Both the position numbers and the translations under genes were made by a program. Positions 3,910 through 17,159 of a DNA stretch of 21,473 nucleotides are shown here, piece after piece; the first letter of the stretch is position 1, and the number at the start of each line of letters is the position of its first letter. Origin of the DNA: Terramyces sp. JEL0728. Its lineage: Eukaryota > Chytridiomycota > Chytridiomycetes > Rhizophydiales > Terramycetaceae. Location of the stretch: assembly GCA_027603945.1 (NCBI GenBank), contig JADIIU010000179.1, positions 1-21,473 on the forward strand, given 5' to 3'. The notes below the pieces were generated by a model, which saw only the letters and a list, made by a program, of their open reading frames with translations, was not told the origin of the DNA and ran no database searches.

Positions 3910-3910
3910 G

Positions 3911-3983
3911 AGCCCGACGTGGGGGTCGAACCCACAACCTTGAGATTAAGAGTCTCACGCTCTACCGATTGAGCTAGCCGGGC
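3911..3983 (-). tRNA. trnK-CTT: tRNA-Lys (anticodon CTT), copy 2
   Basis: Identical in sequence to the copy at 2660-2732, on the opposite strand. Confidence 0.95.
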
Positions 3984-3985
3984 AA

Positions 3986-4059
3986 TGATTCCATCCAGGA
4001 TCGAACTGGAGACCTCAAGCATGTTAAGCTTGCGTGATAACCGACTACACCATAGAACC
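3986..4059 (-). tRNA. trnV-AAC: tRNA-Val (anticodon AAC), copy 2
   Basis: Identical in sequence to the copy at 2584-2657, on the opposite strand, again 2 nt upstream of tRNA-Lys. Confidence 0.95.
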
Positions 4060-4063
4060 ACAT

Positions 4064-4869: not shown

Positions 4870-5923
4870 ATGTCTGTAGCAAGAAAGTACGCCAACGCCA
4901 ACCAGGAAATGGATCGATCATACTGGGACTATGACGAGCTAGAACTGACTTATGGGTAAGTTCTAGTAACCGTAGGGGACAGGAAAACTATGAAATAATC
5001 CGCAAAGTTGGAAGGGGAAAGTATTCTGAAGTATTTGAAGGAGTAAATATTCAGAATGAAATCAAGTGTGTGATCAAAGTTTTAAAACCAATCAAAAAAA
5101 AGAAAATCAAGAGGGAAATCAAGATATTGCAGAATTTAAGCGGAGGAACAAATATTATCCAGTTGCTGGATTTAGTACGAGATCCTTTGGTAAGTAGATT
5201 TAACCATAGAGTAAAACCCCTGCATTGATCATGGAGTATGTCAATAACCAAGATTTCAAAACACTGTATCCGAAATTAACCGATTTCGATGTGAGATACT
5301 ACATGTTTGAATTATTAAAAGTAAGCTTTGCTAATGCAGGCGCTGGATTTCTGCCATTCAAGGGGAATTATGCATAGAGATGTGAAACCGCACAATGTCA
5401 TGATTGACCACGAAAATAGAAAACTCAGATTAATTGATTGGGGGCTGGCTGAATTTTATCACCCGGGTACGGAATACAATGTTCGAGTAGCTTCGCGATA
5501 CTTTAAAGGACCTGAACTATTGGTTGATTTCCAAGAATACGACTACTCTTTGGATATGTGGTCTTTGGGATGCATGTTTGCAAGCATGGTAACTGAGATT
5601 AATCATAGATATTCCGTAAAGAGCCGTTCTTCCACGGACAGGACAATTACGATCAGTTGGTAGTGATTGCCAATGTTTTAGGCACAGATGAGCTGTTTGC
5701 TTATATTGACAAGTACGGCATCGAACTGGATCGCAGATTTGATGATTTACTCACCAGATGCGTAAGAAAGCCATGGACCAGCTTCATTACACCGCACAAT
5801 CAACGCTATATATCAGATGAAGCCATCGAGTTTTTGGACAAATTACTGCGATACGATCATCAAGAAAGAGCTTTGCCAACAGAAGCAATGGAATTAGCAT
5901 ACTTTGATCCTGTCAGAAAATAA
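4870..5923 (+). CDS. CKA1: Casein kinase 2 catalytic subunit alpha, copy A
   Basis: Constitutively active Ser/Thr kinase of the CMGC group, working alone or with CK2 beta on acidic sites. The spliced product is 324 residues, starting [15 protein letters not shown]. All CK2 hallmarks are present: the glycine loop [11 protein letters not shown], catalytic lysine in VIKVLKP, the basic cluster [15 protein letters not shown], catalytic loop [11 protein letters not shown] in place of DFG, and [15 protein letters not shown]. It ends soon after [20 protein letters not shown], so it lacks the long tail of the animal enzyme. Four introns are inferred from family alignment: 4956-4975 (20 nt), 5190-5209 (20 nt), 5321-5339 (19 nt) and 5589-5608 (20 nt), for example GTAAGTAGATTTAACCATAG. 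AATAAA overlaps the stop. Tandem with copy B, 119 bp downstream. Confidence 0.95.
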
Positions 5924-6042: not shown

Positions 6043-7101
6043 ATGTCGACTTCAATTGCCCGCTTGTATGCAAATGTCAATGAGCAAATGGATCAATCAT
6101 ACTGGGACTATGACAATGTAGAGCTGACTTACAAGTACGATTTGTTAACAAGGGGCCAAGACAACTATGAAATCATCAGAAAGGTTGGAAGAGGAAAGTA
6201 TTCTGAAGTATTTGAAGGGGTAGATATCAAAAACCATAGGAAATGCATCATCAAAGTGCTAAAACCTATAAAAAAAAAGAAAATCAAGCGGGAAATCAAA
6301 ATTCTTCAGAATTTAAGAGGCGGGGTGAACGTTATTCAGTTATACGAACTAGTTAGAGATCCAATTGTACAGTTTGCTAATGGTAGAGTAAAACCCCAGC
6401 GCTGATTATGGAATGTGTGAATAACCAAGACTACAAGTCCTTGTATCCAAAGTTTACCGATTTTGATATTCGATATTATATCTTTGAATTGTTGAAAGCG
6501 CTGGATTTCTGCCATTCCAGAGGGATAATGCACAGAGATGTCAAGCCAAATGTAAGAAATTGTTGATGTAGAATGTGGTTATCGATCATGAAAAGAGAAA
6601 GCTGAGATTGATTGATTGGGGGCTGGCTGAATTTTATCATCCGAGAACTCATTATAATGTTCGTGTTGCTTCCAGATACTATAAAGCACCGGAATTGTTG
6701 GTTGATTATCAAGAATACGATTATTCGTTGGATATGTGGTCCTTGGGATGCATGTTTGCTAGCATGGTACTCGCTGTTGACCCTAGATTTTTTTGATTGA
6801 AGTGTTCTTTCATGGTGCTGATAATCAAGACCAATTGGTTGAAATTACAAAAGTGCTCGGCACTGATTTGTTTTACAAGTACGTAGACAAGTACAGCATC
6901 GATCTTGATCCTGCATTTGATGTTCTAATCATCAAGAGTCCTAGGAAATCGTGGCACTCGTTTGTTACTCCAGAAAACTCCAAATATGTGTCTGATGAAG
7001 CATTAGAGTTTTTGGACAAGTTGCTGCGATACGATCATCAGGAACGCATCCTTCCTAGCGAGGCAATGGAGCTGGCTTATTTTGATCCTGTAAGAAAATA
7101 A
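6043..7101 (+). CDS. Casein kinase 2 catalytic subunit alpha, copy B (diverged paralogue)
   Basis: The spliced product is 326 residues from the ATG at 6043 ([17 protein letters not shown]). The glycine loop, catalytic lysine (IIKVLKP), HRD and DWG are intact, so it should be active. Differences from copy A fall in normally fixed CK2 positions: KPNN for [12 protein letters not shown] for [16 protein letters not shown] for YFKGPELL, and [10 protein letters not shown] for [10 protein letters not shown]. Four introns: 6135-6152 (18 nt, GTACGATTTGTTAACAAG), 6367-6386 (20 nt), 6552-6571 (20 nt) and 6767-6786 (20 nt). Introns 1, 2 and 4 match copy A in position and phase; intron 3 lies elsewhere. 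The first intron is a multiple of three without a stop. AATAAA overlaps the stop. It may have different substrates or expression from copy A. Confidence 0.93.
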
Positions 7102-12867: not shown

Positions 12868-12871
12868 ATGT

Positions 12872-12945
12872 GGTTCTATGGTGTAGTCGGTTATCACGCA
12901 AGCTTAACATGCTTGAGGTCTCCAGTTCGATCCTGGATGGAATCA
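12872..12945 (+). tRNA. trnV-AAC: tRNA-Val (anticodon AAC), copy 3
   Basis: Identical to the copies at 2584-2657 and 3986-4059. Confidence 0.95.
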
Positions 12946-12947
12946 TT

Positions 12948-13020
12948 GCCCGGCTAGCTCAATCGGTAGAGCGTGAGACTCTTAATCTCAAGGTTGTGGG
13001 TTCGACCCCCACGTCGGGCT
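12948..13020 (+). tRNA. trnK-CTT: tRNA-Lys (anticodon CTT), copy 3
   Basis: Identical to the copies at 2660-2732 and 3911-3983, 2 nt after tRNA-Val. Confidence 0.95.
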
Positions 13021-13021
13021 C

Positions 13022-13214: not shown

Positions 13215-14548
13215 TTATTCATAATCAAGAAGAGAAACCAATCCACTATTCTCACTTTCAAGCACGTTCCTAACACACTCCAACTGTTTGACAATCCTAA
13301 CTATCCCGCAATCATCAACCATCTTGCTATTAATAATATCCCCAACACTCCCAAAACAGTCATACTCTAAAATATACTGCTTGGGACCTGGTTGCGTATA
13401 ACACACCAATTCAATCACTTCCTAAGTTAATTTCATTTAACCATGAATTGCGAAATGTAGGGTTCTCCAAATTGAGTGATTTGGGGTTTAAGTGTGCGAC
13501 CGCGTATAATTGCTTGCAAATACTGCTTTTGCTGGAGCAGTTGGATCAAGTCTAGACAAGCAAACAGTGTAATTGTTTGATGATCAATTAGACGAGGGTA
13601 ATACTGTTCTAATAGCTGTGTGGCAGAGTTCAAGTTGCCTGTTTTTATATTTGTACATATTTCATTCCGAATATCTAATGTGTCGGTATTCCTGACTGTC
13701 TCAAATCCTCCCTTTAAATCCAGGATTTGCTGATTTTTCAACCCAGTTTCGTAAAACATTCTTGCTGACTCTGTGTAACCTGAGTAAACAAGATATTCCA
13801 GCACCAGTTCTGTAATATTTCCGATTTGTATTTGGTTTATTTGGTGGTGTAGTTTTTGCGACTGTTCGCGAATGTACTGTGTGATGTCGAATTTGAACTC
13901 TTCCCTTCCAAAATTAGCTCGGATTATTTCACCTGGTGTTCTTGTGCCTACGCAGGGATACAATACATTTGGAAATTCCTTGAAGGCTATTGATCAAATT
14001 AGATATTACCTAGAGATTAGACAACTTGCGGTACCTATTCCGAGCAGTATTCCATTCTTTGTAAAACTAATATTCCTATTGCCAAAATCAACAATAACCC
14101 CGATAACATCGCCCGTACTATAACTAGGTCCATATCCACTGCTCTTTACATTATACCTTTTCCCATCCTGAGCAAAATACCCAAAAGTCCCTTCTTCAAT
14201 CCCTGGCAACTTTGTACTGGGTTTGTTATTGCTAGATACCCCAATAGAAATGTACCCATCACGACCTTTAGATACAATAGCAGTCTCGTAGTAATAGATA
14301 CCTATTTGCGGTATAGGAATATTAGACAAGACTACAGCAGCATCTGACTCGGTTTTACCTGGTCCTTGGTAATTCATTTGTAAATTCCCTGGTTCTAGTT
14401 CAGCGTACTGATTCTTTGTTTTCAAAGAAAAGCAAGAAGGAAGAACTGGTGGGCTGGGTTCTTTTTTGATAGTATCTTGAATGAATCTCGGTATATTTTG
14501 TTGGGTAGGTGTAGCTGCTGGAGTTGAACTTGAGATTCGTATTGTCAT
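13215..14548 (-). CDS. RANBP9: RanBP9/RanBPM-like protein (SPRY-LisH-CTLH-CRA), Gid1 type
   Basis: Scaffold subunit of the GID/CTLH E3 ubiquitin ligase. The spliced product is 421 residues. The SPRY domain covers about residues 45-205 (IGIYYYETAIVSKGRDGYIS, GDVIGVIVDFGNRNISFTKN, LGIAFKEFPNVLYPCVG, TRTPGEIIRANFG). LisH follows (ITELVLEYLVYSGYTESARM), then CTLH (LDIRNEICTNIKTGNLNSAT, LFACLDLIQLLQQKQYLQAI) and the C-terminal CRA region (EVIELVCYTQPGPKQYILEY). The human RanBP9 order is the same. Introns: 13987-14034 (48 nt, compound, listed separately) and 13422-13441 (20 nt, GTTAAATGAAATTAACTTAG), which joins SQFM to EVIEL. Total coding length is an exact multiple of three. AATAAA overlaps the stop. 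Start ATG at 14546-14548. Confidence 0.93.
13987..14034 (-). other. Compound intron in RanBP9-like gene: two GT-AG units end to end (25 + 23 nt)
   Basis: The exon before ends NGILLGI and the exon after starts AFKEFP, matching the conserved SPRY stretch NGxxLGIAFxxxPxxLYP with no gap, so exactly 48 nt leave. Inside, a first unit (14034-14010, starts GTACCGCAAG, ends TAATCTCTAG) abuts a second (14009-13987, starts GTAATATCTA, ends GATCAATAG) as AG|GT. Removing only one unit breaks the frame. Confidence 0.8.
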
Positions 14549-14718: not shown

Positions 14719-15839
14719 CTAAAGGTTTATTAAAGAAACAGCTTGCTTGAAAACATTCAAGTCCAGTGCAGAACCTTGATCTCTGGCAATAGCTTCAGCA
14801 ATCTTTAGCTGCATTTGAAACAAACTCCCATCATCAACAACCAACCCATTGGACCTCTTTTCCTTTTGCATCTCAATAAACTCGTTTTGAATTTCTTTTT
14901 CGTTAATCTTGACGTTTGTTTCATCCTTTATATCACTGTATAAATCAATTGCAGGAGAATCAGTTGGGTTCAGTTCAATTTCTAAATGCGTTTTGAATAG
15001 CTTGGAATCAGAAAGAATGATTGACTTGATTGGCTGCTGGAATTCTGTAAATGGAATGTCGTAATCAACCACTGAATCTTGCAGTACTCGTTCAATTAGT
15101 TTAATGTTTTTGTAACCAATTTCATTCAACTTTCCTTCTGTAATCAAATCGTCAAAAATCACTTGCTTGTGCTGTAGCACAGTGTACTCTAATATCTCCT
15201 CTCTTTTCGGCTGCAAATTCTTCTTGTTTAGTTGTTCAATCGAAAGTTCATGGAAAGCAAAGGGAAGCTGCTTAAAGAAATCCTTGTTGTCTGTTTTAAT
15301 CTTTAGTGATAGATCAGTAAACAGGGAATAATAAAACAATTCACCTGCTGTTAATTATGTTTACCTTGCTTGCCCAGTTTGAACAGCACATCCCGCAACC
15401 TGGTGTAATCCAGATCCAAAAGCTTGTGGGAACGAGGCGAAATAGCACCATCACTGACTGTTCCTTTGATTTCATAAACATGGTTCAAGAGTAATGGTTT
15501 TTGTGTTTTCACAATAACTGTTCCTGGTTGGTTTTGGTAATGACAAACAAACGGATATTTTTCAATGTAGCCTTCAAAACCAATCAATTCATCTCCAGGT
15601 TGTAATTCATCTGTGAATAAAAAGTAATCATTGACGAGTAATTCTTGATTGCTTCTCTTGATTCTACATTCCTTTGGTACCAGCTGCATATCCATTTGAT
15701 CTTGCACAAAAACCCGGATTGTTTGTTCTTGACTCAATTCAATGCCAGTGGATTCAAGATCGTTCGAATATTCACTGTTTGGTCCATTAATAGTCAAATA
15801 TTCAATTCCGGTAGGGTCAATATCGTTTTCAACAGTCAT
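14719..15839 (-). CDS. 366-residue protein of unknown family
   Basis: Two exons, 15365-15839 and 14719-15344, joined across a 20-nt intron at 15345-15364 (GTAAACATAATTAACAGCAG). The splice reads LGKQGELFYYSLFTDLSLKI and keeps one frame. The N-terminal half (about residues 1-160) is rich in short strands (ECRIKRSNQELLVNDYF, QPGTVIVKTQKPLLL, VYEIKGTVSDGA) and could be a beta-barrel of OB type, though I cannot show this. The C-terminal half is mostly helical and charged (EEILEYTVLQHKQVIFDDLI, LFQMQLKIAEAIARDQGSAL). No signal peptide or membrane segment. AATAAA lies at 14726-14731, just inside the coding end before TAG. Its start codon is 16 bp from that of the divergent BTB gene. Function unknown. 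Confidence 0.75.
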
Positions 15840-15855: not shown

Positions 15856-17159
15856 ATGGAATTTCAAGAAATAGAGATTGAAAAAACGGAAAAGCCCAGC
15901 GAAATTATTATAGACGATTATTCCAAATTCTTTGACGGATTCTACTCTGACTTTACGCTTTATATTAATAATATTAAAGTAAAGCTGCATAAGATTATTA
16001 TCCATAGATCAGGTGCATGTTACTAATTACAGGTACCGGCAGACTTTAATGACCAGGACTGTTAAGCAAGTGCCTGGACAAGGACACGCACCACTTGAAG
16101 ACAGAGATTGACCCGAAAACAATTAAAACAGCCTTGCTTTCATTGTACACCAACAATATAACAAGCAACTTGGAAACATTCAAAGCGTCAATGTACCTAC
16201 AAATCCCGCTATCTGAAAAGATATTTTCCAATATCCTACCAACGTTGGACAAGGAAAATATCTTGAATTTTGTATTATTGTTGGATGGAATGGACTACAG
16301 TAGGCTGGAACAGAGGGTTATCATGAAGATTAGCTTGATATTTGATGACGATTTGGATGGGCTTTCGCTACTGCCCCTTTCTTGGATAGGTAAGTTATTC
16401 TAATTCCCAGGTTTGCGCGTTTCCTGATATATAGGTAGGCTTTCTGTTTAATTAAAGGCAAAGTACTGACTAGTGATTATTGGTGCGTCGAGGACGAGTA
16501 CACACGCTATGAATCGCTGAAAACAATCCTAATGACAAGGAGAGAACGGATGGAACATCTCGAGCTGGAACAAGAAATCCAAGAAAAGAAAACATTCAGT
16601 CTAATAGGAATCCTGAAAAATCTGCTCACTGACGAACAAAAAACAAGAGAAATCTTGCCATTAAAGGAGAGCAGCAAAATTATTGTGCCTAAAACTATTG
16701 GTGATATTTATGAAAAGATTGTGTATACGTTTATGCCCCACTACCAGCTGTCAGTAGTCAAGCAAGATGGCATAATTCCTCTCTCTGTCATATTAGAATC
16801 ATTCTGGATCCAGAATGAAAGTATTAATGTTGATTTGCCAAACTACAGGTACAATGCATTAATCAGATTTGGATTACAAGTCGATGGCCTGGATGGGTTT
16901 GTTAGCAAAGGGTATGGCTGGAACCAATTCATCTTTCGATTAATCGTGCAAAAAGAAGATGACGGGTAAGTTGGATTAACGCAGATACAAAGCCTATTTG
17001 CAAAAGAACAAGGAGATTAGTATTCCAATCTCATACAGGATTTATTACATTTCAGAGAGTGTGGAATTGGTTACTAAAGTCGATAAGGATGGGATTGGAT
17101 TCTGCGACCCAATTGGAAAGAGTGAGAATATGTGGTTTAATATAATTGTTTCTTTTTAA
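15856..17159 (+). CDS. BTB/POZ-BACK domain protein
   Basis: Spliced length 390 residues in four exons. The BTB fold is at about residues 20-85: FFDGFYSDFTLYINNIKVKL, HKIIIHRSG, then after a compound intron LLSKCLDKDTHHLKTEIDPK and LLSLYTNNI. A BACK-like helical region follows (LPTLDKENILNFVLLLDGMD to LSWIGKVLTSDYWCVEDEYT RYESL). The C-terminal 200 residues (SVILESFWIQNESINVDLPN, GWNQFIFRLIVQ, ISYRIYYISESVEL) are strand-rich and not identified. BTB-BACK proteins are usually Cullin-3 adaptors; no Kelch repeats are seen. Introns: 16013-16056 (44 nt, two units), 16390-16457 (68 nt, three units) and 16966-16984 (19 nt, GTAAGTTGGATTAACGCAG). Coding length is an exact multiple of three. The stop is followed by AATAAT rather than AATAAA. 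Confidence 0.88.
16013..16056 (+). other. Compound intron 1 of BTB gene: two GT-AG units end to end (20 + 24 nt)
   Basis: Unit 1 is GTGCATGTTACTAATTACAG (16013-16032); unit 2 (16033-16056) starts GTACCGGCAG and ends TTTAATGACCAG. They meet as AG|GT. Removing unit 1 alone gives a stop after SGTGRL; removing unit 2 alone leaves a stop after SGACY. Removing both gives LHKIIIHRSGLLSKCLDKD, which fits the BTB pattern. Confidence 0.8.
16390..16457 (+). other. Compound intron 2 of BTB gene: three GT-AG units end to end (21 + 24 + 23 nt)
   Basis: Units are 16390-16410 (starts GTAAGTTATT, ends CTAATTCCCAG), 16411-16434 (starts GTTTGCGCG, ends CCTGATATATAG) and 16435-16457 (starts GTAGGCTTTC, ends TTTAATTAAAG). 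Each boundary is AG|GT. Removing all 68 nt joins PLSWIG to KVLTSDYWCVEDEY in frame, continuing a BACK-like pattern. Confidence 0.8.

Follow-up and report, generated by a model that had tools for sequence, protein, structure and literature searches.

The window, that is the whole 21,473-nt stretch of DNA analysed here (contig C179, 1-21473), carries a 68-nt intron on the plus strand that would be a concatemer of three complete micro-introns, and one of many arrays of 2 to 8 such units in the genome. We are fairly confident that each unit is a complete micro-intron removed separately through zero-nucleotide exons, and that some arrays grow by duplication of units.

Tiled introns in the window

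The interval 16390-16457 divides without remainder into GTAAGTTATTCTAATTCCCAG | GTTTGCGCGTTTCCTGATATATAG | GTAGGCTTTCTGTTTAATTAAAG, of 21, 24 and 23 nt, joined AG|GT. The host gene and its tiled introns are as follows.

15856..17159, plus strand: host gene, with a 44-nt intron, the 68-nt intron and a simple 19-nt intron at 16966-16984
16390..16410, plus strand: unit 1 of the 68-nt intron, 21 nt, model score 8.35, in-frame stop if kept
16411..16434, plus strand: unit 2 of the 68-nt intron, 24 nt, model score -0.26, in-frame stop if kept
16435..16457, plus strand: unit 3 of the 68-nt intron, 23 nt, model score 4.76, frameshift and stop if kept
16013..16032, plus strand: unit 1 of the second tiled intron, 20 nt, in-frame stop if kept
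16033..16056, plus strand: unit 2 of the second tiled intron, 24 nt, AG|GT join, in-frame stop if kept

The originally predicted division of the 68-nt intron into three GT..AG blocks with zero exon between them is exact. Dinucleotide shuffling of the interval with its ends kept fixed gave no tiling in 20,000 trials; tiling here means a full division into blocks that measure 18-26 nt, begin with GT, end with AG and have T[AG]A[CT] close to the 3' end. Among the 68-nt GT..AG spans in a 221-kb sample of the genome, 1 of 1231 tiles, and this is 16390-16457 itself. Every single unit or pair of units kept in the upstream frame gives an in-frame stop.

The units differ in strength. Simple introns have a median model score of 8.5 and a 1st percentile of 2.4, and unit 2, in which donor and branch site are both weak, falls below this percentile. 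The tile-aware gene model labels the whole interval one LONG intron and not three units.

The start of the host gene at 15856 was picked by eye; the gene model starts at 15742. A Pfam search with the gene gave 0 families at E<=1, which leaves its earlier BTB-BACK name without Pfam support, and a paralogue search of the genome was likewise empty at E<=1. Because the host gene has neither a Pfam match nor a paralogue, the exon boundaries of the 68-nt array are set solely by reading frame and splice signals.

The 44-nt intron of the host gene (16013-16056, 20+24 nt) was absent from the original prediction. The same is true of a 48-nt intron (13987-14034, minus strand, 25+23 nt) that lies within the SPRY domain of another gene.

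13215..14548, minus strand: RanBP9/10-like gene (SPRY, CTLH) with the 48-nt tiled intron
14010..14034, minus strand: unit 1 of its tiled intron, 25 nt, gapless homology over the junction
13987..14009, minus strand: unit 2 of its tiled intron, 23 nt, joined AG|GT

The joined SPRY protein aligns to RanBP9/10 with no gap where 13987-14034 is removed. The default tile-aware model picks another parse here, and a higher tandem prior, or homology, leads to the tiled one. Per 5000 shuffles, 9 and 10 tiled like the 44-nt and 48-nt introns, respectively.

Simple introns

The genome examined comprises 15.0 Mb in 231 contigs. The 221-kb sample consists of the window and 200 kb from the 20 largest contigs, each contributing 10 kb in one piece. 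The base gene model is blind to tiling, and motifs of this sample supplied its signal and length priors, which favour 18-26 nt. It gave 322 introns, of which 291 are 18-22 nt long (mode 20), in agreement with the 18-21 nt first noted for simple introns. A length profile of GTA[AC]G..TAAY..AG, made without any prior, likewise peaks at 19-22 nt when compared with one shuffle. In brief, the introns start with GTA, carry a YTRAY branch site with its A mostly 5-6 nt from the end, and end with YAG. An example is:

5190..5209, plus strand: simple 20-nt intron in a protein kinase gene

On the same sample, the tile-aware model called 301 simple introns and 21 introns longer than 26 nt, 3 of them tiled and 18 LONG, the 68-nt intron included. 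Several of the LONG calls, not all, are model errors as judged by eye, at gene ends or gene joins. In a ribosomal-protein gene, which we take to be RPL18, the LONG call was rejected because a 23-nt intron fits instead, by eye (L004).

The Rfam U2 model has one strong match in the genome, and the matching sequence holds GTAGTA. The U1 snRNA model (RF00003) gave no match in the genome, but control searches likewise matched nowhere, so that this does not count against a U1 gene.

Abutting junctions genome-wide

We searched the genome with pattern 1, YTRAY-N-YAG|GTA-N{6,13}-YTRAY-N{1,2}-YAG, and pattern 2, which has NN before YAG. Pattern 1 gave 26 matches against 1 for the reversed pattern and pattern 2 gave 39 against 2, in sum 65 zero-gap matches against 3. 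Tiled introns recur across the genome, with a marked excess at zero gap. By row count, the 39 matches of pattern 2 represent about 31 distinct places, several rows overlapping one array or duplicated genes. With gaps of 0, 1, 2 and 3 nt between the units, pattern 2 gave 39, 5, 5 and 23 matches, respectively; of the matches with a 3-nt gap, 16 are on contig C106 and 7 elsewhere.

For pattern 1, 21 of the 26 loci were examined; the five dropped (L033, L040, L049-L051) were duplicates or gave an array a second time. The pattern left the donor of unit 1 unspecified. A GT is present 18-24 nt upstream at 14 of the 21 distinct junctions, compared to 5, 8 and 8 in shifted windows. Among the seven junctions without an upstream GT, L042 and L044 fit arrays by another parse and the others resemble chance matches in exons. 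L032 and L033 (C18:67347 and C18:129121) are near-identical duplicated DnaJ-domain genes, approximately 62 kb apart.

The two half-patterns are matched by 158 and 181 of 302 simple introns. From these rates, and with 16 of the 21 matches taken as real, we roughly estimate the abutting junctions of the genome at about 150, against some 22,000 introns, which would make tiling uncommon, about 1 percent.

A stricter pattern, GTAAG..TAAY..AGGTAAG, showed no excess, with 4 matches in the genome against 6 in the control. We think that it is too strict and that later donors are seldom GTAAG. Its match in an SMC gene (Pfam SMC_N), presumably SMC2, was rejected as a chance match.

Arrays inside conserved proteins

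In total, 25 arrays were parsed, comprising 81 units of 19-25 nt. Pattern matches and manual choice both contributed to the set: 16 of the 21 pattern 1 loci (the five unparsed were omitted), three model calls, four starts on C128 given by hand, and two arrays of the window. Twelve arrays have two units and 13 have three or more, and their total lengths are 38-182 nt. Unit donors are GT and rarely GC, the latter in 2 of the 81 units (L042 and L048 on C128).

Several of the arrays interrupt conserved protein sequence. A five-unit array lies in the SPX domain of an SPX-ankyrin protein at ELEK|VN, and the joined protein is gapless against 7 relatives. Its best-scoring matches are in the chytrids Batrachochytrium salamandrivorans (46 percent identity) and Rhizophlyctis rosea (49 percent), and from this one protein we take the genome to be fungal. 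Proteasome alpha-7 has a 19+19 array at VEY|A and is gapless to PDB 6epc. A Pfam match spans the junction in a histone deacetylase (20+20), a CAP-Gly domain (20+21), topoisomerase I (22+21+21), an SNF2 protein (20+20) and a TPR protein (19+22+20), and within a HOOK domain the junctions of a seven-unit and a three-unit array are likewise spanned. Altogether, the HOOK-domain gene carries arrays of 7, 3, 8 and 3 units, and five units of the eight-unit array are identical. The array of the SNF2 protein adjoins what we take to be its ATP-binding motif. In the Pfam search of ten array proteins, two (L035 and L030) had no domain match over the junction.

Of the 51 units of 14 genes, 49 cause a stop or frameshift when kept singly, with one exception each in L029 and L018; this count leaves out two untiled LONG stretches in those genes. 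Judged from the coding sequence, removal of the whole array is needed by the conserved proteins.

Longer introns and 3-nt exons

The original prediction held that the spliceosome may handle only about 20-25 nt at a time. Such a limit is not supported, given two untiled introns anchored by homology, one of 45 nt in the uS3 (RPS3) gene (L006:4814-4858) and one of 123 nt in the uL30 (RPL7) gene (L005:3082-3204). Both junctions are gapless when compared to solved ribosomal proteins. The 123-nt intron holds a match to an snR39-like C/D snoRNA with 28.7 bits (Rfam cut-off 40, E 0.005). The uL30 gene has a further untiled intron of 44 nt near its start, which lies outside the aligned part and is not anchored by homology. 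A nested, stwintron-like parse of five untiled introns (45, 45, 44, 75 and 123 nt) was searched for down to a score of -3 and none was found. By eye, the 45-nt intron of uS3 is readable as a 24-nt insert in a 21-nt unit, a parse we rejected since the unit model gives it no support.

A polyproline-coding stretch on C106 (L052, C106:24920-25420), presumably formin-FH1-like, is built of 3-nt ACC exons that alternate with introns about 20 nt long, and some of these introns are near-identical. Within 501 bases there are 12 ACC exons followed by GTA, and taking out each intron restores GGPPP..PGMG repeats. The 3-nt-gap matches read on C106 belong to this stretch, outside which lie three more (1754-1928) and another two past 25420. 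Exons this short imply, as far as the gene structure can tell, that each unit of about 20 nt would be recognised by itself.

Unit similarity and alternative explanations

Array units have a median model score of 7.5, below the 8.5 of simple introns (p = 7e-5; with the two GC units left out, p = 2e-4). The median donor score is 2.75 for first units and 3.87 for later units (p = 0.011), against 4.21 for simple introns. In identity, 10 of the 56 pairs of neighbouring units exceed the 99th percentile found for introns paired at random, and 46 do not. The 46 dissimilar pairs would be old or separate in origin, and may have arisen by routes other than duplication. Identical 20-mer copies are found in arrays on C128 (five) and C30 (three), and these units occur nowhere else in the genome at <=2 mismatches. 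Three identical 23-nt units are located at another place on C128, in an array without a homology anchor. The identical copies suggest that the arrays on C128 and C30 arose by local duplication of whole units, because the units occur nowhere else. The original prediction proposed that introns may multiply by insertion at an AG|GT site. Such gain is possible in general, but the arrays on C128 and C30 argue for local duplication instead.

The strongest alternative is that an array is spliced in one step, from the outer donor to the last acceptor, as an ordinary longer intron in which the units are passive relics of duplication. The untiled 45-nt and 123-nt introns of the ribosomal-protein genes show that longer introns are removable, and an array of 38-68 nt could be as well. 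Internal units are sometimes weak, as is unit 2 of the 68-nt intron, and the lower scores of array units point the same way. Nevertheless, we find one-step splicing unlikely. Relics should decay, whereas the dissimilar neighbours keep both length and signals, and the first unit of an array is already a complete intron of the preferred length. Because unrelated units still keep length and signals, we infer that each unit is used in splicing.

A minisatellite, i.e. a 20-23 nt tandem repeat with incidental GT..AG that happens to sit in introns, could account for the identical copies on C128 and C30. It does not fit the dissimilarity of 46 of the 56 neighbouring pairs or the variation of unit length within arrays, and repeats alone should not be missing from the protein in phase with GT and AG. 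We regard this explanation as very improbable. Introns are dense enough (322 per 221 kb) for a few abutting pairs to be expected from random placement with no special process, but the 39 matches at gap 0 against 5 and 5 at gaps 1 and 2, and the 13 of 25 arrays with three or more units, leave chance with hardly any weight.

Proposed splicing and growth of the arrays

We suggest that the arrays are spliced unit by unit, as their anatomy favours. In brief, every unit starts with GT (rarely GC), carries a branch-like site and ends with AG, and the spliceosome would most likely pair the nearest sites across about 20 nt, i.e. by intron definition. Units could then leave singly and in any order, as the GT or AG of the next unit would stay intact at the exon junction. 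Some arrays would lengthen when exactly one unit is duplicated, a change expected to be neutral for splicing, as the added copy is an intron too. The removal of single units, the order of removal and the way in which units duplicate are all inferred. The earlier proposal that long introns are removed stepwise (recursive splicing) is favoured by the recurrence of tiling, the zero-gap excess and this anatomy; the length limit that was given as its reason is not.

More broadly, and with less confidence than in the units themselves, we think that intron length in this genome is probably largely quantised. Units of about 20 nt would be added by local duplication or by insertion at AG|GT, and up to eight reactions would take place at one position, through zero-nucleotide exons and with no exon definition.

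Such genes would offer a compact natural system for testing recursive splicing, in that a single gene has introns of about 20 nt that abut in sets of 2 to 8. The exact duplication of one unit would be a visible route of intron gain. The arrays and microexons also bear on the shortest intron and the shortest exon (0 or 3 nt) that a spliceosome can manage, and gene finders will misannotate genomes with intron arrays of this kind.

Comparison with known systems

In ratchet-point recursive splicing of Drosophila, AG and GT are juxtaposed, a zero-nucleotide exon is formed and the intron is removed stepwise (PMC8605326). The arrays are alike in that acceptor and donor adjoin as AG|GT with no exon between them. 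According to that paper, recursive splicing in Drosophila subdivides long introns and needs a cryptic RS-exon, whereas the units here are of about 20 nt, up to eight of them abutting, and leave no obvious room for an RS-exon. The 25 parsed arrays, at 38-182 nt in total, do not lie inside long introns. Abutting U2 introns excised by recursive splicing have been listed among the kinds of complex intron, citing animal work (PMC6616335); unlike the arrays here, no ultrashort, multi-unit or fungal case is described in the relevant passages of that source.

The stwintrons of ascomycete fungi are complex introns that leave in successive standard reactions, with intron definition at work (PMC12403724, PMC7138796). 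As summarised in these sources, they are nested and the internal intron typically splits a splice element of the external one. The units here are complete and lie side by side, and the junctions fall between complete GT..AG units. Introner elements would leave dispersed near-identical copies; for the two array units searched genome-wide at <=2 mismatches there are none.

Very short introns are described in mikrocytids (16-17 nt) and in Paramecium bursaria (median 24 nt), where splicing is less efficient for introns shorter or longer than 23-26 nt (PMC10245619, PMC12862383). These organisms share a narrow intron length range with this fungus, in which 291 of 322 introns are close to 20 nt (18-22 nt); the relevant passages of the two papers describe no arrays. 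Head-to-tail arrays of ultrashort introns were not found in the literature searched by title and opening abstract, a search that covered mostly journals outside subscription. Within that literature, abutting or recursive introns are known from animals, nested twins from fungi and tiny introns from protists, each separately, and their combination, with as many as eight introns of about 20 nt abutting in one array, was not found.

Other features of the window

Two adjacent protein kinase paralogues (Pfam) are located at 4870-5923 and 6043-7101, and we take both to be CK2-alpha-like. Where the gene at 4870-5923 has a 20-nt intron, the one at 6043-7101 has an in-frame, stop-free, intron-like stretch of 18 nt, GTACGATTTGTTAACAAG. 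A tRNA-Val/tRNA-Lys pair is present in three dispersed copies, at 2583-2733, 3910-4060 and 12871-13021, with flanks that are similar by eye.
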